64,000 nucleotides of DNA from Bolinopsis microptera (taxonomy: Eukaryota; Ctenophora; Tentaculata; Lobata; Bolinopsidae), in the NCBI RefSeq assembly GCF_026151205.1, contig NC_087074.1, forward strand, positions 21,061,765 to 21,125,764, in the 5' to 3' direction. A model generated the notes under the pieces. The model was not told where the DNA came from and ran no database searches. It saw only the letters and a program-made list of their open reading frames with translations. The translations under genes and the position numbers were made by a program. Below, one piece after another: positions 1-64,000 of this stretch (positions are counted from its first letter, which is position 1; every line of letters begins with the position of its first letter).

Positions 1-8
1 GCTATATT

Positions 9-2480
9 GGGGGGGGGGGGGGGGGGGGGGGGTGACATGTCTCCAATGTCTCCCGCACCTTATCTTTTCGAAAAAGACAAAGACATTGGAGACATTGGAG
101 ACATTGGAGACATTGGAGACACAGCTTTTGGAGACATTGGAGACATTTGGGACATTTGGGACATTGGGGACATTAGAGACACAGCTTTTGGAGACATTGG
201 AGACACAGCTTTTGGAGACATTGGAGACATTGGGGACATTTGGGACATTGGGGACATTAGAGACACAGCTTTTGGAGACATTGGAGACACCTCCTCCTCC
301 TCCTCCTCCTCCTCCTCCTCCTCTTCCTCCTCAGTCCTCCTGAGTCGTTCTCCTCCTCCTCCTGAGTCCTCCTCCTCCTGAGTCCTCCTACTCCTCTTCA
401 TCCTCCTCCTCTTCCTCCTCAATCATCAGTCCTCCTCCTCAGTCCTCCTCCTCATCTTTCTCGTCAGTCTTCCTCCTCCTCCTCAGTCCTCCCCAAGTCC
501 CCCTCCTCCTCAGTCCTCCCCCAGTCCCCCTCCTCCTATTCAGTCCTCATCCTCCTCCTCCTCAGTTCTCCTCAGTCCTCCTCCTTCTCAGTCCTCCTCC
601 TGAGTCCTCTTCCTGAGTCCTCCTCCTGAGTCCTTCTCTTCCTGAGTCCTCCTCCTCCTAGGTCCTTCTCCTCCTCCTCCTCAGTCCTTATCCTCCTCCT
701 CCTCCTCCCTCTCAGTCATCCTCCTCAGTCATCCTCCTCAGCCATCCTCCTCAGCCGTCCTCCTCAGCCATCCTCATCAGTACTCCTCAGTCCTCCTCCT
801 CAGTCCTCATCCTCCTCCTCAGTCCTCCTCCTCATCCTTCTCCTTAGTCCTCCTCTTCCTCAGTCCTCCCCAGTCCCCCTCCTCCTCCCATTCACTCCTC
901 CTCCTCCTCCTCAGTTTTCCTGAGTCTTCCTCCTGAGTCCTCCTCCTCCTCCTGAGTCCTCCTCCTGAGTCCTCCTCCTGGGTCCTCCTCCTCCTAGGTC
1001 CTCCTCCTTCTCCTCCTCAGTCCTTCTCCTCCTCCTCCTCAGTCCTCCTCCTCCCTCTCAGTCATCCTCCTCAGCCATCCTCCTCAGTCCTCCTCAGTCC
1101 TCCTCCTCCTCCTCAGTCCTCATCCTCATCCTCCTCTTCAGTCCTTCTCCTCCTGGGTCTTCTTCCTACTCTTCATCCTCCTCCTCTTCCTCCTCAGTCC
1201 TCAGTCCTCCTCCTCATCCTTCTCGTCAGTCCTCCTCCTCCTATTCAGTCCTCCTCCTCCCCCTCAGTTCTCCTCAGTCCTCCTTCTCATTCCTCCTAAG
1301 TCCTCCTCCTGAATCCTCCCCCTCTTCCTCCTGAGTCCTCCTCCTGGTTCATCCTCCTCCTAGTTCCTCCACCTTCTCCTTCTCCTCCTCAGTCATTCTC
1401 CTCCTCCTCCTCCTCAGTCATCCTCTTCAGTACTCCTCAGTCCTCCTCCTTCTCAGTCCTCCTCCTTCTCAGTCCTCCTCAGTCCTCTTCCCGAGTTCTC
1501 CTCCTCCTCCTCCTCCTCAGTCCTCCTTCTGGGTCCTCCTCCTCCTAGGTCCTCCCCCTCCTCCTCCTATTCACTCCTCAGTTTTCCTGAGTCCTTCTCC
1601 TGAGTCCTCCTCCTGAGTCCTCCTCCTGGGTCCTCCTCCTCCTAGGTCCTCCTCCTTCTCCTCCTCAGTCCTTCTCCTCCTCCTCCTCAGTCCTCCTCCT
1701 CCTCCCTCTCAGTCATCCTCCTCAGCCATCCTCCTCAGTCCTCCTCCTCCTCAGTCCTCATCCTCATCGTCCTCTTCAGTCCTCCTCCTCCTGGGTCCTC
1801 TTCCTCCTCTTCATCCTCCTCTTCCTCCTCAGTCCTCAGTCCTCAGTCCTCCTCCTCATCCTTCTCGTCAGTCCTCCCCAGTCCCCCTCCTCCTCCTATT
1901 CAGTCCTCCTCCTCCTCCTCAGTTCTCCTCAGTCCTCCTCCTTCTCATTCCTCCTAAGTCCTCCTCCTGAGTCCTCCTCCTCTTCCTCCTGAGTCCTCCT
2001 CCTGGTTCATCCTCCTCCTAGTTCCTCCACCTTCTCCTTCTCCTCCTCAGTCCTTCTCCTCCTCCTCCTCCTCAGTCATCCTCTTCAGTACTCCTCAGTC
2101 CTCCTCTTTCTCAGTCCTCCTCAGTCCTCTTCCTGAGTTCTCCTCCTCCTCCTCCTCCTCAGTCCTCCTTCTGGGTCCTCCTCCTCCTAGGTCCTCCCCC
2201 TCCTCCTCCTATTCACTCCTCAGTTTTCCTGAGTCCTTCTCCTGAGTCCTCCTCCTGAGTCCTCCTCCTGGGTCCTCCTCCTCCTAGGTCCTCCTCCTTC
2301 TCCTCCTCAGTCCTTCTCCTCCTCCTCCTCAGTCCTCCTCCTCCTCCCTCTCAGTCATCCTCCTCAGCCATCCTCCTCAGTCCTCCTCCTCCTCCTCAGT
2401 CCTCATCCTCATCGTCCTCTTCAGTCCTCCTCCTCCTGGGTCCTCTTCCTCCTCTTCATCCTCCTCCTCTTCCTCCTCAG
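9..2480. repeat. G-run, 9-bp minisatellite and 2.2-kb pyrimidine tract
   Basis: A run of 24 G (9-32) is followed by TGACATGTCTCC and then by a minisatellite on the GGAGACATT theme to about 290. From there to 2480 the plus strand is almost pure TCC/CCT with interspersed TCAGTCC words. A duplication of roughly 650 bp is visible: the block at about 1581 recurs at about 2230. The tract ends exactly at a TCCTCAG splice acceptor in front of the first recombinase-like exon seen here. Ser/Pro-rich and Glu-rich reading frames in this tract are low-complexity artefacts. Confidence 0.9.
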
Positions 2481-2482
2481 GA

Positions 2483-4507
2483 TGGTTTCTCAGAGGAATG
2501 GCGATTTCTGAGTCAAGGTGAGCAATGAGTATTCAGATGAGACTTGTTACATATTATATCCACAAGCTTTACTGCTTTACAGACACATCTTGAACCGATT
2601 TATTCGGACTGACAATCTTTCATGAAAAATAATGTAGATAACTCATAACCTACCAAATTTCGGATATATATTGAATCTTATTATAACATTTAACGACTAT
2701 TCTACATAGTACATTCATTTAAAAATCAAATAATGATTTTCTGCATGGTGATAAATGTCACATATAAGCCATCATTTCAGTCTGGATACCGACAAATTAA
2801 GAGCGACAATTAATTTCAAGGCTGCTCAGAAAGCAATTTATATGATAGAGAAGAAGAGGCTCTGTCGCGAGATAGAGGATGAACTTGGTATCATAACCTT
2901 CGTAATAGGAAAAGGCAACACTGGAAATGGTTTGACAGGTAAAAATAATGAACGTGTATACTGACTCTATTTATATGTATTGCTTTTGAGTAAGAAATAC
3001 TGAACTAATTGTCACGTCGCTTAACAATATTGAAATAAAACAGTATCAGTAGTATTTGTTTTCAGGTGGTCAAGGAAAAAAATTCTTTGATAAAGCTGAG
3101 GAGGTTTGTGCGCTGTTGAAAAACAGAAAGGACAGTGGAAAGTGGCTGCTCCTCATGAAACGGATTCAGTTTATCCTGACTTCGATTAACTCGAATATGA
3201 AGATCGAGCCGCAAGCCTTTCGAGTATATTTGCGGGTTACTACTGACTTCATCGTGAGAAATTTCAAATGGATGAGGATAATTCCGACGTTGCACACAGT
3301 CAGTAACTAAATAATAATTTGTATTAAGGCAATTCACTCAACAAAATTTTTGCTCTTGACAAATAAATCAATTGTTTATCTATATGATTGGATTTGGGTG
3401 TTGATAGGCACTGAATTGTCAAATGCCACATGAATGAAATATACCGTACCTGTGCATATCGTATCGTATTGTATTTTAACAGAGATATCGTTATTGAAAT
3501 AGTTTTTGCCATTACATCTTTTGCATTTGTCTAATAATGTAACATCACAGGTTCTCGCTCATTCATGGGAGTGGATTGAGCGCAACGGTGGTTATGGAAT
3601 CACTAACTATAGTGAGGAACCGCTTGAGGCAAAACAGGGGAAAGCAAGGAACCTTCGCAACCACAGTTGTTTCCAAGGAAACCTAGATAAGAACCTGACG
3701 CAATGTATTCAACATATGTGGTTGCAGGGCGACATGACCATCAATAAACCTTTTTTTGCAACGACAAAAAATGTAAGAAATATTTACATATAGGAGGATT
3801 TAAGGATGGAATCTTATTTGATGCGTGTGATCTTTTATACTTTTATACTTTAGTTTTTGTCTACGGCCAAATATGCTGATTTAGGAACAATCAATAACAC
3901 CAATGATTATCGTCGACTTGACTTTAATATTATATATAAATTTCAGAAGAAACGTCATATCGATGAATCTCACCGCTCTTATGCCAAAATTATAGACAAA
4001 GACTCAGTCAAGTAAGAAATCCTTGTGATAAATAATTCCTTTTTAACGAGGCTATGATCTTCAAAAATGCTAGGGCGTTGAAGCCTTGTACGTACACAGC
4101 GGAAAAATCTTAATGAATAAAATGTGAATTGCTGCTCACTTAAAACTCTATAGAAAAACTTTAAAGGTTTTATTGTCCGTCAAAAAACAAGCATGCAATT
4201 TTAGGAAAACAAGTCAGCTACACAAGAAAAGAGTTCATTGATAAGGAGTGTGAAAATAACATTATCTCTCCGAGAACAGATGTAAGTTGAGCGAAATTAC
4301 TATCCCCAATTATTTGCCCCTGCTGATGAAAAATGTTGTATTGTGATTCGGAACGTTATTATATATATCATACAATTTTGACACATCGCAACTCACTACT
4401 TACTGAGGTTATGTTTAAAGTCGTTTCACATTATTAATCTTTGACAGGTTGTTAATTCTGCCACAAAAGAAAAGAATGAACTGATGAACTGGTTCTTCAA
4501 TTGTTGA
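2483..4507 (+). CDS. RAG1L: RAG1/Transib-superfamily recombinase-like protein, C-terminal exons
   Basis: Exons read from sequence: 2481-2517, 2781-2938, 3066-3298, 3551-3772 and 3947-4011; further candidates are 4205-4281 and 4448-4507. All introns between 2517 and 3947 are GT-AG and the codon phases join without a frameshift. Seen: a GKGNTGNGLTG stretch leading into GKKFF, then PTLHT joined to VLAHSWEWIER, then YSEEPLEAK. In the family (RAG1, ProtoRAG, Transib) this is the C-terminal end of the RNase H-like core. The two His of HTVLAH (3293-3295 and 3560-3562) have the spacing of the zinc-binding pair H937/H942 of mouse RAG1. The Glu at 3626-3628 falls where catalytic E962 is expected. The two catalytic Asp and the CxxC would be upstream, outside the window. 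Exon 4 reads into TAA at 4013-4015 if unspliced, and its splice phase does not match the 4205 exon, so the 3' end is uncertain. No RAG2-like gene or element ends were seen. Confidence 0.82.
4205..4507 (+). other. Candidate 3'-terminal exons of the RAG1-like gene
   Basis: Two exon-like blocks are each bounded by TTAG or ACAG and a GTAAGT donor or a stop. The block at 4205-4281 is open in the frame starting at 4207 and ends at GAT before GTAAGT. It joins in phase with 4448-4507, which encodes a short tail ending in NWFFNC and TGA. The join from the 3947-4011 exon into 4205 needs a 1-nt adjustment, so either there is an error or these exons are not part of the same transcript. Confidence 0.35.
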
Positions 4508-5271
4508 GGAAAACTTCCTTCTCTCGCTGCTCGCAACATAGCATAACTTGGTTTAATTCTCTGCGCTCTTATTTTGCAAACGAGGCCTAAAATATTGTTA
4601 TGTAGGATAGACTTTTATGTAGGATAGACGGAATAGTTTCAGTAACTTTCTTGATCATCTTTAGAAACTCTTTCACCAACTTCGGAAAAGTCCAGTTTGC
4701 CTGCTGAAATTTCAGAATCCTGCTCTACTTTACGGAAGGCGCGAATGTAAAATCTATGAATTGTAAAAAAAGCAATAATTGTCAGTTAAGAGTTAATATT
4801 TGAATATATATGGTCGGTCGAATATGATATAAAGAATTGATCCAAAGCCAGCAGGCTTTTCGCACTGGCCAGTAATGCTTTTTGAAGGGAAACGCTACAA
4901 TGCTCATCAAGGAGCAAATCCTGATTCGCGTAACCAATATCAAACGCATCATGGAATCCATTTTCTGAGATAGGATTCACATTTAATCATCAAAACTCTT
5001 TTTACTGTTTGTTTAACATAATGATATTAAGTAGTGGTCGTTTTGAATTATTTTCAGACTTTCAATACCGATGGGGTTTGAGAATAATTAGGTCTTGGGA
5101 GTTGGGAACATAGTTCTAATCCGGAGTTATGGCAAATTACGTGTTAGTAATAATGTCAATGATTGTATCTGTGTTCGTGTTTTAATCTAACTACTGACTT
5201 TATTTGTTTATTTCAATAAGGTATTGTATTTACCTTATATTTATAAATAATATAGATAGAGCAAAAGCATT
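4508..5271. other. AT-rich stretch, one unassigned minus-strand ORF
   Basis: Mostly AT-rich with no recognised gene. A minus-strand open frame at 4786-4980 has protein-like composition (GFHDAFDIGY near its start) and a possible CTATCTCAG acceptor, so it could be an exon. I do not recognise the family. Confidence 0.3.
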
Positions 5272-5424
5272 CCGGATGTGGGTTCGAGTCCAGGCCAGGG
5301 GTTGAAATCTTCGAATCGAAGTCCAGGCCAGGGGTTGAAATCTTCGAATCGAAGTCCAGGCCAGGGGTTGAAATCTTCGAATCGAAGATTTCAACCCCTG
5401 GCCTGGACTCGAACCCACATCCGG
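5272..5424. repeat. Perfect hairpin with three tandem 33-bp units
   Basis: The 33-bp unit beginning GTCCAGGCCAGGGG occurs at 5288-5320, 5321-5353 and 5354-5386. It is immediately followed by its reverse complement through to CCACATCCGG at 5424. The outer arms contain GGTTCGAGTCC, which matches the consensus of a tRNA-type pol III B box, in inverted copies. No tRNA cloverleaf can be folded around it, so a tRNA/SINE-derived origin is only an inference. Confidence 0.85.
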
Positions 5425-5991
5425 TCTAACTTTTACTAGTATCTGTTCTTTGGAGTAGTCCTCTGCTCTCATGATCAAGCCATTGTGGTAACTGATCATT
5501 TTGATACTATGTGTTATTATATTGTGCTACAATGCACTAATCGATCAAATTAATAATAGTTTCAATTCTTATATTGGTAGAATTGGCGTTAAAAATTGCA
5601 CGCGAATGTATTAAAATTACACAGAAACATCGTCTTTGATCATCTCTATCTCAAAACGATCACAAAGTAGCATCCTGAAAATTTGCACACATACAGTTGA
5701 GATGATGTCTAATATCTTCTAAGTTTTCTGGGAGCCTACTATGTAAGCTTCACTTGCAGTGGTCTGTCGAAAATTGGTTACTTTGCGCACATTTAATAGT
5801 CGACTTTATGAAAAAAGTTAACTAATCAAATTTATACTGGGATGCAGAACAAAGGATTCTCTTTAAAACTGAAACATGAACTAGTGATATGCTAAGTAAA
5901 GATAGGGCTGGTGGTCAATAGGAATCATGATGAAATATTTGCCTGGCAACACTCAGCGCGCGAAAAAATCTGTAGTGCAATGCGCTTCCAG
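5425..5991. other. AT-rich stretch with no recognised feature
   Basis: No convincing exon, RNA gene or repeat was recognised between the hairpin and the Ig-like exon. It ends in a TGCGCTTCCAG acceptor-like sequence. Confidence 0.5.
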
Positions 5992-6224
5992 TGGTCCCAT
6001 CGTGGGCTGTTGAAGGAAAACAAGCCATTTTAACCACATTCCTGACTGCTACAAACAAGTCGACTATCGAGGTTATCTGGCAACACAGGATTGAAGGAAA
6101 CTGGACGAATGTTCCATCAGATGGCTACCTGACTCTTTACTATAGTGTGGCAGAAAACGGTGTCATGTCTACAAGTCTTGTCATCCATCGTGTAAAAGAA
6201 TCAGATGTAACACAACCATACGAA
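5992..6224 (+). CDS. Probable immunoglobulin-like domain exon lacking the canonical cysteines
   Basis: An open exon is bounded by a CTTCCAG acceptor (ending 5991) and a GAA/GTAATG donor at 6225, starting in phase 1 as Ig exons usually do. Reading VPSWAVEGKQ, then EVIWQH (Trp codon 6078-6080), then TSLVIHRVKESDVTQPYEV, it follows the order of a V- or I-set fold: B strand, C-strand Trp, E strand and the S-D-x-x-x-Y motif before the F strand. No Cys is present at the B- or F-strand positions. Cys-less Ig-like domains are known in invertebrate recognition proteins, including hydrozoan allorecognition genes; assigning this exon there would be speculation. The open frame continues to 6335 but enters array sequence from about 6215. 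No neighbouring Ig exons were found. Confidence 0.45.
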
Positions 6225-6699
6225 GTAATGCGATTGAACATAAATACTCAGCTTACAACTTCAACCATGGGAACGAGACGTCGTGAGCCTCAAAATTCTT
6301 CAAATATACAGCACATACCAGTTGCAAGACACTAACACAACATAACATACGATACCAAATAATGTATGAATGCCATTACTAACTTCGAAAGAAAATATAT
6401 CTGCTATCTAATTTAAAAAAATGAAGAATAAACCTTAATAAAGGGTAAGATAGGGGTTTGGGAGAGGCAGATTAAGTTAACAACAGGATCCGTGAGCCGC
6501 AATGATTTAAAATTTGTTGAATGATGATTCGTTTTGTTCGTCTCTTAGATTAATATATAGGTCTTGATTACCCTTGACAAGGTGTCTTTGCAATAACACG
6601 TGGTTTACTGCATATGATTAAGTTATTTAATTAACCTATTTCAATTATAATTGCATTTGCATCAAAGTTGTTAACTGCACCATAGTGTCTGTCATATTT

Positions 6700-8100
6700 A
6701 GATTGAAGTTTCAAACAAGAGCTTTTCTTAAGAAGTATTCTTGAAAATACTGATAGGAGTGGAGAAGTCCTATTTCACTTCGTGACTTACGGCAGTGCTT
6801 CCAAATACTGGTTGATTGGTAGATGAAAGTGATTACAGGAGTGGTGGGATGAGGTAGTTTGTCTCGTCTTGTGACCTTGAATAAAGAGAACAATGAGACT
6901 GGTGATGGAACTTATTAATTTTAAACATTTTCCAGTAAACAGTGCACTTAAGAAGATTGGTGTACCAGTCAGAAGTAGACTCGTTTACAGAAAGGTTTAC
7001 TGTGTTTCTAGTTCAAAGAAAATCTTTGCCTAACATCTGGCTGATAACTTTACCGGGTTCTTATCCCTAGGATAAGTGGCCTTACTCTGGCACATGGTTT
7101 GAACTTATTGAAGGTCGCATCATTCATACCAAAGAGAATTCTTATGCATTTCTTTTGGTGTTTTAAAATGGCTCTAGTTTATTATTTTAAACAACACTTC
7201 CCCAAACAGAGAATTCCATAACATAGGTGTGATTCAAAAAGGGTGTGTGTACAGGTCCTTATAGATTGTTTTAGTACACAGCGTCTGATTCCACATATAC
7301 CTAACCAATCTCCACATTTCAATTTTACGATTTAACGCTCTCAATGTGAGCATGCCCAGTTTTCATTTTTGTCAATAATTACTCCAAGAAAACTTAGTTC
7401 CTCTACCATTTAAATATTATATTATTCAGTGTCAGTTCTTAATCATTAGTGTTTTGAATCTGGTTCATTTCCTACATTCGGCTTAAAGTGGATATAACAA
7501 CAATTTTCTTTGTGTTTGATAGTGCAGCAAGTTACTCTTCATATATTGATGAACAAGTTTAAAATTTTGTTAAGCTTTGCAGTAAAGGTTTTTATACTTT
7601 ATCTACAACAAATATGTTGGTGTCAACGGCAAACAAGTATAAACTTACTAGGTCATATACTCAATATTATTTCATTGATGTATATAATGAAAAGCAAGGG
7701 ACCTAATACTGACCCCTGAGGCACACCAATATTACAGATCAGTTTTTCGATTCTTCTCCAAGTACTGAAACATATTGCTGCCTATTAATAAGGTAACTGC
7801 TAATTAATTTATTTGCAGTCCCTCGAATTCCATATCAATTTCAGTTTTTAAGCAGTTTAATCATGACATATTGTATCAAAAGCTTACTTAAATCAATGAA
7901 GATGCCTAGTACATGATTTTTTATCTCTGTTGATTTTTCAATGTAGTCGCTAGAGAATGTTAAGTGCATGCTTGTCGAATGATTTTTTCTGAAGCATATG
8001 ATTTTTCATATAATAATCCTTGGCGACTGGGAAGAAACTGTAAAGCCAGGAGAATATCAATGACATTGATATTTCGGCTGCGTGAACGGTTTGGTGAGGG
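6700..8100 (-). pseudogene. Reverse transcriptase fragment of a CR1/jockey-type LINE (example in unit 1)
   Basis: Read on the minus strand across the seven copies, the fragment runs from a truncated finger region through ENQYGFRKNHST, then DLSKAFDT (clearest at 34679-34894), the GVPQGSVLGP region and ILFADDTN (reverse complement around 7625), and on into the C-terminal domain. These are the RT core blocks of non-LTR retrotransposons. No endonuclease domain precedes it. Every copy is broken by frameshifts, some of which are probably sequencing error. It is related to, but distinct from, the LINE at 57833-63482; the same motifs differ at many residues. Equivalent stretches lie in each unit. Confidence 0.8.
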
Positions 8101-43181: not shown

Positions 43182-53221
<10,040 letters not shown>

Positions 53222-57832: not shown

Positions 57833-60800
57833 TCACTTGTACAGTAGGAAAAGTAGAGGTCCTAATACACTACCCTGAGGGACTCCAAATTCGACCGGTA
57901 ATTCATCAGATTTGGTATCTAGAACATTTACAAATTGTTTCCTATTAGACAAGTAACTAGAGATAAGATTCAGAGCATTCCCTCTTATACCATAGTTTTT
58001 TAATTTAGTAGTTAGTTTACAGTGATCTAGAGTGTCAAAGGCTTTTGAGAGATCGATGAAGACCCCTAGGACATGTTGCTTTTTACTAATTAACGATTCT
58101 ATATGTTCTACAGAGTAGTTCAGTGCATGGCTGGTGGAGTGTCCTTTCCTAAAGCCGAACTGGTTTTCATGTATTATCCCCTTGGAAGTAAGGAAACTAT
58201 AGAGCCTCTTATAAATTAACTTTTCTAGAATTTTCCCGAATACAGGTAGAGTTGATACTGGTCTATAGTTTTCTAATAGCTGTTCATCTTCTTTTTTGTA
58301 AATGGGGCTGATTCTCCCAGTCTTCAATTCATCGGGGAAGTGGCCTTCTTGCATGCATTTGTTAAAGTATCTAGCTAAGTACGGTGCAGTAATTTGGCAT
58401 GACTTCTTGATCACATGAATAGGTATGTCACTGGATTTCCCGTTTTTTAGTTCGCTTATGGTCTCTTTAATCTCAGTACAGTCAGAATCCCAAAGATAAA
58501 TACTGGACGTAATTGATGTTGGCAGGTAGTCAGTAAATGAAGGCAGCGAATTTATTCTCAAATAGTCACCAGAGTATGCTTCGTTCAGGTTAGCTGCAAT
58601 AGAGGCAAAGTATTTATTGAACTCATTTGCAATTATACGACGATTAATCACACGTTCATTATTTATCACGAAGTTCGGCTTGATCTCACGTCTTTTCTTA
58701 CCACGTAGTTCGTTGATTATCTGCCAGGTTTTCTTACTGTCTCCAGCGCATTCTGTAATCTTAACACCATGATACTTACGTTTTGCAGAATTGATAAGGT
58801 GGTTTAATAACTTCCGGTGTGCCTTAAATTCTTCATGACGTGTTACCTTATTTGTACAATTATAACAAAGAGTAAGACAGTCTGCATGGCTAGGTGAAGA
58901 GTTGCTGAGGCATTTCTTCTTAACTGCCTTTTTCCATAGGTCATAAAGCTCATGTTTTCTATTTATAGAGGCAATTAGGCCAGATGTAATCCATGGGTTG
59001 TTTTTAGCAGTACGTTTAGAACACTTAGGCTGGTCTAGTTTACATGCGTTGTCTAGTTGATGATTGAATAGAGTGAAAAAAGTACTGAAATCTTCTGGTG
59101 GATCACTTGTTAATTCATTGTCTAGTACTTCGACAAATTTGTTCACATTAGTAGCACAGTAGTCATAGTACTGGAAGTGCTTTTGTTCATGATCCTCAGC
59201 ACTGACTAGGGGTGAGTTGAATATGTTAAATACAGCATGATGGTGACTGATGCAGGTACTAATCGTTCCAGAGCAGATAGAGTTTTCGATGTTGGTGGTG
59301 AGTATGTTGTCAATGCATGATTGGTTACATCCTGGTTTATGATGCGTAGACGTAGAAATAAGTGGTGATAAACCTAGGCCTAGAATAAGGTTTTCAAAGT
59401 CTTGAACGAGTTTACTGTTTTCATCATGGAGATTAATGTTGAAGTCTCCTAGTATGTAAACATTCTTTTTTGAGCATGATTCAATCATTTTTCTAAGTTC
59501 ATTTAGTGCCTCTGAGGCGTTCCCACTAGGAGGACGGTACAGAACTCCTACATGTAGAGGTTCATCATGTTGAATGGTAATAAATAGGGTTTCAAGATTT
59601 TTGGTTACCCATGATAATTCTTCGTTTACAACTCCATTAAGTTCGTCCTTTAAGTACAATGCTACTCCACTTCCCTTCGCTTTATTGATATGTTTATCTT
59701 GGTAGAAACAATTAGTCCAGTCATTTACGGACATTTTTGGGTTAGTACCTGCAAATTTTCAGATACCCACGAAACTTTGCACAGACCTTCCCAAAGGTAT
59801 GATAAAACGATTTTCGGTTGGAGACATTTTTTTTACTTTGGGCAAAACCCAGGAGGGCCACGCCCATCTGACCCAATAACGTAACTGACCCCTTGCTTCT
59901 GAAGGTCGTAGAGACTTCAAAATAGGCTTAAACGAAGCCGCATATGCATGTTTATATAAGAGTTATTGATCAACACAATGCCTAAAATCCTTACTTTTCG
60001 AGAAATTCGCCAAAAACCATTTTGGGCGTGGCGCTGAGCCGATTTTACTAACTTTTGATAGGATTGTGATAGATTGTTTGGATAGAGTTCAAAAGAACCG
60101 CAATTGGCATATTTATATATGACTTACGAAGAAACATATGCCTTAAAGTGCTTACTTTTTCAGTTATTGGCGAAAAACTGATTTTCGGTTCCAGAAATCA
60201 TGCAAAAATATGGGTATGTGGTACATTGGGCTATGAAGGCCTTAGAGATTTTTGAATGAGTGCAAATTGTGCAAAATGGCCATGTTTATATACAACTTAT
60301 GAAGCAACATGCACCCTAAAATGCTTACTTTTCGAGTTATTTGGGGGAAAAACAGAGAAAATTTGCACAAAATAGAGCAAAATTGGTTATATCAGCCATT
60401 TTTGCCTCCCGTTCTATGTTAATAACTCGAAAAGTAAGCATTTTAGGGTGCATGTTGCTTCATAAGTTGTATATAAACATGGCCATTCTGCACAATGTGC
60501 ACTTATTCAAAAATCTCTAGGGCCTTCATAGCCCAATTTACCACATACCCATATTTTTGCATGATTTCTGGAACCGAAAATCAGTTTTTCGCCAATAACT
60601 GAAAAAGTAAGCACTTTAAGGCATATGTTTCTTGGTAAGTCATATATAAATATGCCAATTGCGGTTCTTTTGCACTCTATCCAAAGAATCTATCACAATC
60701 CTATCAAAAGTTAGTAAAATCGGCTCAGCGCCACGCCCAAAATGGTTTTTGGCGAATTTCTCGAAAAGTAAGGATTTTAGGCAATGTGTTGATCAATAAC

Positions 60801-61325
60801 TCTTATATAAACATGCATATGCGGCTTCGTTTAAGCCTATTTTGAAGTCTCTACGACCTTCAGAAGCAAGGGGTCAGTTACGTTATTGGGTCAGATGGGC
60901 GTGGCCCTCCTGGGTTTTGCCCAAAGTAAAAAAAATGTCTCCAACCGAAAATCGTTTTATCATACCTTTGGGAAGGTCTGTGCAAAGTTTCGTGGGTATC
61001 TGAAAATTTGCAGGCACATGTCCATAAATGACTGGACTAAATTGTATCCCTCTAGATGGTAAACAGTGCTTTCCTCTATTCCAATATTGGTTTCAGCAAG
61101 TCCAATAATTTTAAATTTTTCGGCTATTAGGTCTAGTTCCATGCTAAAGGCATCAAAATTTGTTTTATTGCCATCTATGTTCTGGAAAATCATGGAGCAG
61201 TTGCTTGCAAAACACGGTTTGATATGTGTGTTAAAGTCCTTAATTGTATAGGATCTACAGTTTTCCAAAACATCAGACATCTTTTGGAGACATGGGTCAC
61301 AGTCATTAACTTCAGGATCGGTCAT
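57833..61325 (-). pseudogene. CR1/jockey-type LINE ORF2: endonuclease and RT N-terminal part, interrupted
   Basis: The minus-strand frame starts at 61325 and encodes the beginning of an APE-type endonuclease (SMIFQNIDGNKTNF, then GLAETN). It stops being LINE sequence at GYN (61043), where a palindromic element is inserted, and resumes at CFYQDKH (59712). Then follow VALYLKDEL, VGVLYRPPSG, ILGDFNINL, CIDNILTTN and SHHHAVF, the endonuclease core. The RT blocks FGFRKGHSTSHAL, VFIDLSKAFDTLDH and GVPQGSVLGPLLF come next, ending with LLYK and a stop at 57833 before the catalytic FADD block. The 633-codon frame 57833-59734 is intact; only the insertion and the lost 3' half break the element. The missing 3' half lies on the opposite strand from 62390. 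Confidence 0.9.
59713..61039. mobile_element. 1327-bp near-perfect palindromic (foldback) element inserted in the LINE
   Basis: It begins TAGTCCAGTCATTTACGGAC and ends with the inverted equivalent GTCCATAAATGACTGGACTA. The two halves are inverted copies along about 630 bp each, around a short centre near 60376. The flanking 3-bp duplication AAT is at 59710-59712 and 61040-61042. Removing the element and one AAT restores the GYN-CFY reading frame of the LINE. Within each arm a motif like CCTTAAAATGCTTACTTTTC recurs at spacings of about 165 bp. No long coding frame is present. Confidence 0.88.
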
Positions 61326-62389: not shown

Positions 62390-63482
62390 GATTTTATTTG
62401 CTGACGACACTAACCTATTCGTTTCTGCAGACTCGAAAAAAGACGTTTATAATGTAGCTAACGATATTCTTTCGTCTATTTCTAGATACATGAAATGTAA
62501 TCTACTACATATTAACGCTAAGAAGAGCTGTTATATGTATTTCTCCCCAAACAAACGTGTAAATGAATCGTCTACATGCAGTACACCCGATGATTTAAAT
62601 CTCTCCATAGACGGCTCCATAATAATACGTGTTAAAACAACTAAGTTTCTAGGCGTGCTGATTGATGATAAACTGAACTGGAAACCTCACATCGAATCAC
62701 TAAATAAGAAACTAAGAAGTGCTTGTGGACGTATTTACCGCATAAAAAACTGTCTACCTATAAAACTGCACAAGCAGATATACCACACACTATTTGAATC
62801 ACACCTTACGTTCACCATCTCAGTATGGGGTGGTGTCTCTAACCAAGTTATCAACCCTGTATTCTTAACACAGAAGAGATGTATTAGAATAATTTTTGGA
62901 GATGCAAACTCATACCAAAACAAATTCAAAACATGTGCTCGTTCTAGACCTATTCAATGTAAAATACTGGGTAAATATGAGTCTAATGTTAATAACTCTG
63001 TTAATCCACGTATTAAACCATGTGCAAAGTGTGTCCGCTCTAAATCGGTAGTTCATAATAAACTTGTTAGACCCTTATGTTGTCAAAAACTAGGAGCTTA
63101 ATTCTATTCCAAGGAATCAACCAAACCATTATTTAACAGTCATAAACTCCTTACTGTTCATAATCTTTACAAACTTCGTACTATAACTGAACTTTTTTAA
63201 ATAGTGAAATATAGGGTACCCATATCTCTCTACTCTTTACTTAACATGTCTGAACTGAGGGATGACCGTCTAATACCACCAAAGCCAAGCCATAACTTTA
63301 TTTATAAATCTTCTTGGCTTTGGAATCAATTCAAGGACTCCAATCCACAGAATAAACCTGACTTTGTGAACACATCCTGTAACTCAATCAAATCAAGGCT
63401 AAACCGATCTCTTCTAGATGCCCAAAGCAGGTTCGATAATGAGTGGCATAATGACAACTTTAACAGTTTTGGACCATGCTAG
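62390..63482 (+). pseudogene. LINE ORF2 3' half: RT FADD block to C-terminus
   Basis: The plus strand opens with ILFADDTNLF, the RT catalytic block, at about 62390-62420. It continues through KFLGVLIDDKLNW and HIESLNKKLRSACGRIYRIK and into the C-terminal domain. The frame 62490-63101 ends at a TAA where array copies have a GAA codon (GCTGAATTC there, GCTTAATTC here). A second break lies in the T-run near 63198. The tail reopens at 63204 and ends at FGPC and a stop (63480-63482). This is the part missing from the minus-strand LINE at 57833, so the two are the halves of one inverted copy or of closely related copies. Confidence 0.88.
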
Positions 63483-64000
63483 ATTATTGATAAAAACGTG
63501 GAATTAATGTAAACAAATACTTAATTACTTAAATATTGCCGTTTCCGTACGGCGCTATACGTAATATTATATGTTAAAAGCGCGCCGCAGCTACTCCCTA
63601 CTTCAACATTTGCGCGGGTTTCTTAAGCGCGCACGTACGTTTATTCTTGGCCGTTAATCAGACCCATTACATAACGCTATAGGTGGCAGTGACTGTAATT
63701 TTCTTCAACAATTACTGAATTATCCATCCATAAAGTGATTTACAAAATGACACCTAAACCTCGTGTTTCGGTGTTCACTTAAACGGTACTTGGCGGCTGA
63801 ACTGTGGTGTCTGACGTTTGCAGCTAGATCGGACTCTGCATGATATTGTATTAGCAAATTTGTATAGTGTATAATTGTTTAGTGTTTATGATACTCTGCA
63901 ACCTGGTAGCACGGCTGACACAAAAACAAAATGTTGGCCTGGCTTGTGCATAACCAAGTAAATAACACGCACTCCGATAAAAGCCGTCTGGAGAAACTCC
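63041..64000. repeat. Clean partial copy of the 5.36-kb array unit
   Basis: From TAAATCGGTAGTTCATAATA at 63041 to the window edge the sequence follows the array unit (unit 1 about 9560-10530) with few indels. It covers the LINE tail and the next 0.5 kb with the GCGCGCCGCAGCTACTCCCT region. It continues past the window edge, so another copy or array may lie to the right. Confidence 0.9.

Follow-up and report, generated by a model that had tools for sequence, protein, structure and literature searches.

The transposase-like gene at the left border of the window (the whole 64,000-bp stretch of Bolinopsis microptera DNA analyzed, C3:21061765–21125764) represents, in our confident reading, the 3′ half of a Transib-superfamily transposase gene with multiple exons, carried in a 17.4-kb cut-and-paste transposon of this ctenophore. 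The window copy is a broken transposase of a mobile Transib, not a RAG1 gene. The Transib-type DNA transposon occupies C3:21050391–21067768 as a single insertion of 17,378 bp, whose ends and target duplication were read directly. An earlier note on this DNA had seen in the gene either an old domesticated copy or an intron-rich transposon; the second alternative was borne out by the ends and target duplication, while the first gave way to a mobile element having ends, a duplication, and an end sequence found at many places.

Transposase Exons in the Window

Five pieces of the plus strand (2483–2517, 2781–2938, 3066–3298, 3551–3772, and 3947–4011) join in phase with no stop, and the introns between them are GT–AG in four of four cases. 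The junctions (2517/2781, 2938/3066, 3298/3551, and 3772/3947) agree with those read previously. The first piece is the 3′ remnant (2478–2517, +, WFLRGMAISES) of a transposase exon of ~200 nt, a fuller form of which is present in the left arm of the element. The exon start formerly placed at 2483 was abandoned, since the near-identical copy shows that the break lies at ~2478, where the surviving last ~40 nt of the exon meet a CCT simple repeat and the AG is fortuitous. The exon at 2781–2938 (+) was supported by its GT–AG sites and open frame. The next exon (3066–3298, +), which carries the GxGKKFF block and the first His of the H-x4-H pair, was supported by splicing, the match to the solved structure 6pqn, and alignment. 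The second His and the E962-type catalytic Glu (3626–3628) are located on the exon at 3551–3772 (+), for which alignment and the related C5 copy gave evidence. The exon at 3947–4015 (+) is probably the last, as its unspliced frame stops at 4013–4015. The H-x4-H codons (3293–3295 and 3560–3562) are split by intron 3. When six sequences were aligned (the window, 6pqn, mouse RAG1, the RAG1L of 6b40, and two relatives found in this genome), the invariant columns were one Gly, both His of the H-x4-H pair, and the Glu at 3626–3628. The pair and the Glu pointed out in the earlier note are hence three of the four invariant columns.

Two extra exons proposed beyond 4011 (4205–4281 and 4449–4507) were rejected, because straightforward junctions to 4205 and 4449 put stops in frame; the 4449–4507 piece has a 16-bp insertion in the C5 copy. 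On the other side, window 11–2480 (+) consists of poly-G, GACATTGG-type, and CCT-rich simple repeats, which stand where comparison with the left arm places the D708-type exon and the greater part of the exon after it. To call the frame undamaged was therefore too strong, as the exon of the second catalytic Asp is absent from this copy, and so is the bulk of the following exon.

Ends and Target Duplication of the Element

The right part of the transposon covers window 1–6004 (+), position 6004 being the right end of the element, and its left end lies 11.4 kb beyond the left border of the window. This delimitation was based on the reading of the ends and GGCTG, and on the end being common to other insertions. 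The end itself, reading inward CACGATGGGACCACTGGAAGC, was located at window 5984–6004 (−) by edge comparison and genome matches; the window copy, the inverted copy, and the C5 copy share the sharp edge CCATCGTG and have unlike flanks. Both ends of the C3 element read CACGATGGGACCACTGGAAGC inward and each abuts GGCTG, leading to the layout GGCTG–CACGATGG...CCATCGTG–GGCTG with the ends 17,378 bp apart. The 5-bp target site duplication GGCTG occupies window 6005–6009, and its second copy lies at C3:21050386–21050390. When the flanks were joined, a 145-codon open frame running through the insertion site was obtained; a Pfam search gave no match for it, and the gene was left unnamed.

The edge CACGATGGGACCACTGGAAGC was searched in the genome (264.65 Mb, 232 contigs) with up to 3 mismatches, giving 25 matches, while its reversed control gave none. 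One match (L055) was dropped as lying in unrelated sequence. Of the 24 ends left, 19 start with CACGATG, 3 with CACGGTG, 1 with CACGACG, and 1 with CCGGATG, and they carry 22 distinct 20-base flanks, so that many dispersed copies of the element end exist. Among the 276 possible pairs of these ends, complementary 5-bp flanks occur in the C3 pair only, which is also the sole convergent pair within 100 kb. The consensus of Transib ends is of the CAC..TG type; such ends, resembling the RSS heptamer, were found on the C3 element together with the 5-bp target duplication typical of Transibs, GGCTG on either side. The CACAGTG-like ends and 5-bp duplications that the earlier note had suggested looking for were thus both encountered.

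No second convergent copy of the end was found within 100 kb of the other insertions at up to 3 mismatches. A search for the other end of the family, guided by target duplications and by the limits of homology, took in 1.5 kb inward from each end, the C5 copy, and the interior of the C10 and C4 elements, and it found no such end there. Because the other insertions show the CACGATGGGACCACTGGAAGC-type end singly, the family probably has unlike ends. Subgroup I Transibs have unlike ends, and this unlike-end pairing was inherited by RAG as the 12/23 rule. The C3 element has two identical “right” ends, yet a perfect 5-bp duplication. We consider it quite unlikely that it moved in the two-armed form by joining two like ends; if it did, a ctenophore Transib would join like ends against the unlike-end pairing, and the C3 element would be a mobile palindrome bearing two divergent half-genes.

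Inverted Arms and Broken Gene Copies

The element has inverted arms. An inverted gene copy to the left of the window is 99.96% identical to the window arm over 2,392 bp. The right arm contains, in order, a D600-type exon (KDGMDGAGNQ), its open frame closing 42 bp before the left border of the window, followed by the simple repeats and then by the exons of the window. The left arm contains a D708- and zinc-Cys-type exon (MLDGKM...CNSC) and the fuller next exon, and a D600-type exon was not seen in it. Neither gene copy of the C3 element is whole, and a whole transposase gene was present in no copy found in the assembly.

The D600-type exon had one close match genome-wide, just left of the window; its other matches (three of at least four) were 64–77% identical and all located on C12, these counts and those for D708 being lower bounds. 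For the D708 query, 12 of at least 14 matches were 21–47% identical and the two close ones were the two left-arm exons, the D708-type exon itself having one close match genome-wide, in the left arm. When the D600, D708, and next exons were compared singly with solved structures, no transposase or recombinase was matched, and the D600 and D708 exons came closest to an O-methyltransferase (E = 0.037) and a GATA factor (E = 1.7). The D600 and D708 residues are hence putative assignments by motif and weak matches to relatives in the same genome. Of the D-D-E triad, the Glu is invariant, and the GMDGAGN and MLDGKM..CNSC exons were seen in the element outside the window, with all three residues seen together in no single gene copy.

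By analogy with other Transibs, an intact protein would bind the CACGATG ends, cut with its D-D-E site, and insert with a 5-bp stagger. The two part-genes may have arisen by an inverted duplication followed by loss, so that the C3 insertion would now encode no whole enzyme.

Two further observations concern L023, the 10-kb stretch adjoining the window on its left. A left-arm intron holds an insert of ~1.2 kb (L023:2142–3314), absent from the window arm, which has 354-bp inverted ends (CAGGGTGGCCC) and an apparent TA duplication and looks mariner-like by eye. Tandem repeats of ~750 bp lie inside the element at L023 ~4369–6829; they adjoin the C5 copy too, at a different gene breakpoint.

Relation to Transib and RAG1

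The 237 residues obtained by splicing matched 6pqn, which we take to be the HzTransib transposase of Helicoverpa zea, with E = 1.8e-9. This was the sole match among solved structures at E ≤ 1, and no RAG1 or RAG1L chain among them was matched by the window protein at this threshold. The window protein scored 13.8 bits against the Pfam RAG1 profile, for which the cut-off is 25, and a search of the whole genome with this profile matched two places (C2 and C3:4.78 Mb), not the window. The RAG1-like C-terminal core recognized earlier was therefore confirmed, with a significant structure match to a Transib transposase and a RAG1 profile score below the cut-off.

In a tree of nine rows, built from the C-terminal part, two vertebrate RAG1 and the RAG1L of 6b40, presumably amphioxus ProtoRAG, were grouped (100/98) apart from the other rows, namely the window, C13, 6pqn, and the remaining relatives in this genome. 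This tree, which is small, has long branches, and drew a program warning, appears to support “not RAG1” better than an exact place. A RAG1L nearer to RAG1 than to Transib, the hallmark of RAG-like elements, was not observed in the Pfam score, the structure match, or the tree. The family named in the earlier note hence stands as the RAG1/Transib superfamily outside vertebrates, with the gene nearer to Transib than to RAG1 or RAG1L.

Copies and Relatives in the Genome

The window protein as a query found 21 places in the genome at E ≤ 1, among them the exons of the window itself, the inverted and C5 copies, the C13 copy, which is more distant, and remote relatives. Exon 4 of the window and C5 copies differs with dN.017 and dS.072 (three synonymous and three other changes). 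For the window and C13, synonymous sites are saturated, and dN is.19 in exon 3 and.32 in exon 4; exon 3 of C13 contains a stop. An intron of C13 lies at the same position as in the window, between PTLHT and VLAHSW/VLSHAW, indicating that the introns predate the window/C13 split. These dN values at saturated synonymous sites indicate that the protein was selected for much of the time since that split, and such selection is expected for an active transposase too.

The C10 and C4 elements carry the same end too, and their mutual identity is 98.6% over 4.15 kb. Where they were compared with the C3 element, their match to its gene region (81–82%) extends inward only to ~window 4257, which is short of the supported exons, and beyond this they resemble the 750-bp repeats weakly. 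Derivatives of this kind, with the same end and without transposase exons, were probably mobilized in trans. The C4 copy breaks into sequence resembling reverse transcriptase by eye.

A second, more RAG1-like lineage was noticed at C2:19700416–19701534 (−) and C3:4783511–4784548 (−), with open frames of 571 and 406 codons, respectively. In the comparison with the window protein, where its loci are given as C2:19700416 and C3:4783487, it belongs to the same superfamily and shows D-D-E-type motifs by eye, but its Pfam RAG1 scores (49.4 and 41.3 bits) are above the cut-off while that of the window is below, its identity to the window protein is 24–28%, and its frames are long and open. The protein of C3:4783511–4784548 has a CxxC...H...C-type tail. 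No inverted repeat with CAC ends was listed in the 10-kb stretches at these loci (L025 and L026), and the lineage could be domesticated. A third Transib-type lineage was noticed at C6:5382476–5382940 (+), where a 388-codon frame with MIDGKM...CHFC, giving no Pfam match at E ≤ 0.1, is accompanied by a further upstream open frame with GMDGSGSH.

Matches to the glutamate-receptor channel family number 32 in this genome. A whole receptor used as query gave kainate-2 receptors as its best chains (254.7 bits), above the short ligand-binding chain ML032222a (212.8 bits). The second half of the binding domain by itself gave ML032222a, from Mnemiopsis, first (115.6 bits), then 4zdm, from the ctenophore Pleurobrachia (102.7 bits), and kainate-2 chains at 46.8 bits, which identifies the host as a ctenophore. 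A search for COX1, aimed at the mitochondrial code of the host, found none.

Other Features of the Window

A ~5.36-kb unit is present seven times in tandem over window 6215–42948, the seventh copy being partial and the copies ~82–83% alike, and part of the unit recurs at 63039–64000. A second block similar to 1–2480 (poly-C, GGACATTGG-type, and GAG repeats) lies on the other strand at 45383–48129; simple-repeat blocks of this kind may represent a recurring mobile or satellite unit. A LINE-type endonuclease and reverse transcriptase frame (Pfam RVT_1, 90 bits) was found at 57836–59758, beside a 1.27-kb palindrome (59745–61017) that is 95% identical to its own reverse complement.

Alternative Explanations

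Inverted arms beside simple repeats could be an assembly fault, and there is an appreciable though minor chance that the two-armed 17.4-kb form is an assembly product, in which two copies or haplotypes were joined via simple repeats. Such joining would agree with the near-identity of the arms (99.96% over 2,392 bp), with a break located in a 2.2-kb CCT repeat beside poly-G, and with the gap-closing and haplotig-purging of the published B. microptera assembly described in the consulted part of its report (PMC10232365). It would, however, leave to a chance of ~1 in 1,024 that GGCTG is common to both ends in the right orientation, and it has to face joined flanks that read through as one frame and a 1.2-kb insert that is in the left arm and not in the right.

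The frame being open over five exons, and the exon 3 and exon 4 proteins being 69% and 61% identical to those of C13 at saturated synonymous sites, which indicates protein selection, are what a domesticated RAG1-like host gene with lost transposon ends would display. An active transposase is equally expected under selection, whereas the ends and target duplication are present, several dispersed copies exist in place of a single locus without ends, the window gene is broken, and C13 has its stop in exon 3; domestication is thus highly improbable. The introns, formerly read as a sign of either domestication or an intron-rich transposon, do not argue for the former, as multi-exon RAG1L genes have been reported in sea urchins and amphioxus (PMC9885083, in the sections consulted). 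It is just as improbable that the element is a member of the RAG-like transposons (RAG1L plus RAG2L), with which it shares the superfamily, an RSS-like end, and the 5-bp duplication, since no RAG1 or RAG1L chain was matched at E ≤ 1 and the Pfam RAG1 score is below the cut-off. A RAG2 search of the genome also gave no match, its control likewise matching nowhere, and no kelch or RAG2 family was present in 32 of 32 stop-to-stop ORFs of at least 60 codons in L023, a stretch that covers the element outside the window up to its leftmost 1.4 kb. The leftward extension advised in the earlier note hence gave the D600-type exon in the right arm and the D708-type exon in the left arm and, among those ORFs, no RAG2-like neighbor. 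A broken transposase gene of a mobile Transib is the reading that we retain.

Significance and Comparison with Known Systems

The C3 element represents a further Transib family, rich in introns and well delimited by clear ends, in Ctenophora, a phylum frequently regarded as the sister group of the remaining animals, and it bears on the age and variety of the RAG1/Transib superfamily. It also cautions that an open frame and introns are no mark of a domesticated RAG1, and by itself it leaves the accepted origin of RAG unchanged. In the parts of the sources consulted, RAG1 is assigned to the Transib superfamily (PMC4411706), Transibs are described as having 5-bp duplications and low identity to RAG1 (PMC7204232), and RAG1L and Transib are treated as two clans, with six Transib-like proteins coming from ctenophores (Mnemiopsis and Pleurobrachia; PMC9435367). 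The terms “RAG” and “Transib” are absent from the main text of a paper on ctenophore immune genes (PMC11797021), and no report of the C3 element family was found in titles and abstract openings among the papers listed for Transib, RAG1, introns, and ctenophore DNA transposons. Ctenophore Transib proteins are already known, and the C3 family stands out by its numerous introns and its pair of like ends.

Compared with RAG1 and RAG1L, the window protein has the catalytic residues in common, but it is 18–19% identical, falls outside their clade, and was found with no RAG2 partner. The ctenophore Transib proteins, as described in PMC9435367, share the superfamily and phylum. Transibs generally have CAC..TG ends and a 5-bp target duplication, as in the C3 element. 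The window protein resembles 6pqn in its alignable catalytic C-terminus, H-x4-H pair, and catalytic Glu, with 26% identity over the aligned part, and the C3 gene differs from HzTransib in being split by several introns and carried in a 17.4-kb element with long inverted arms.
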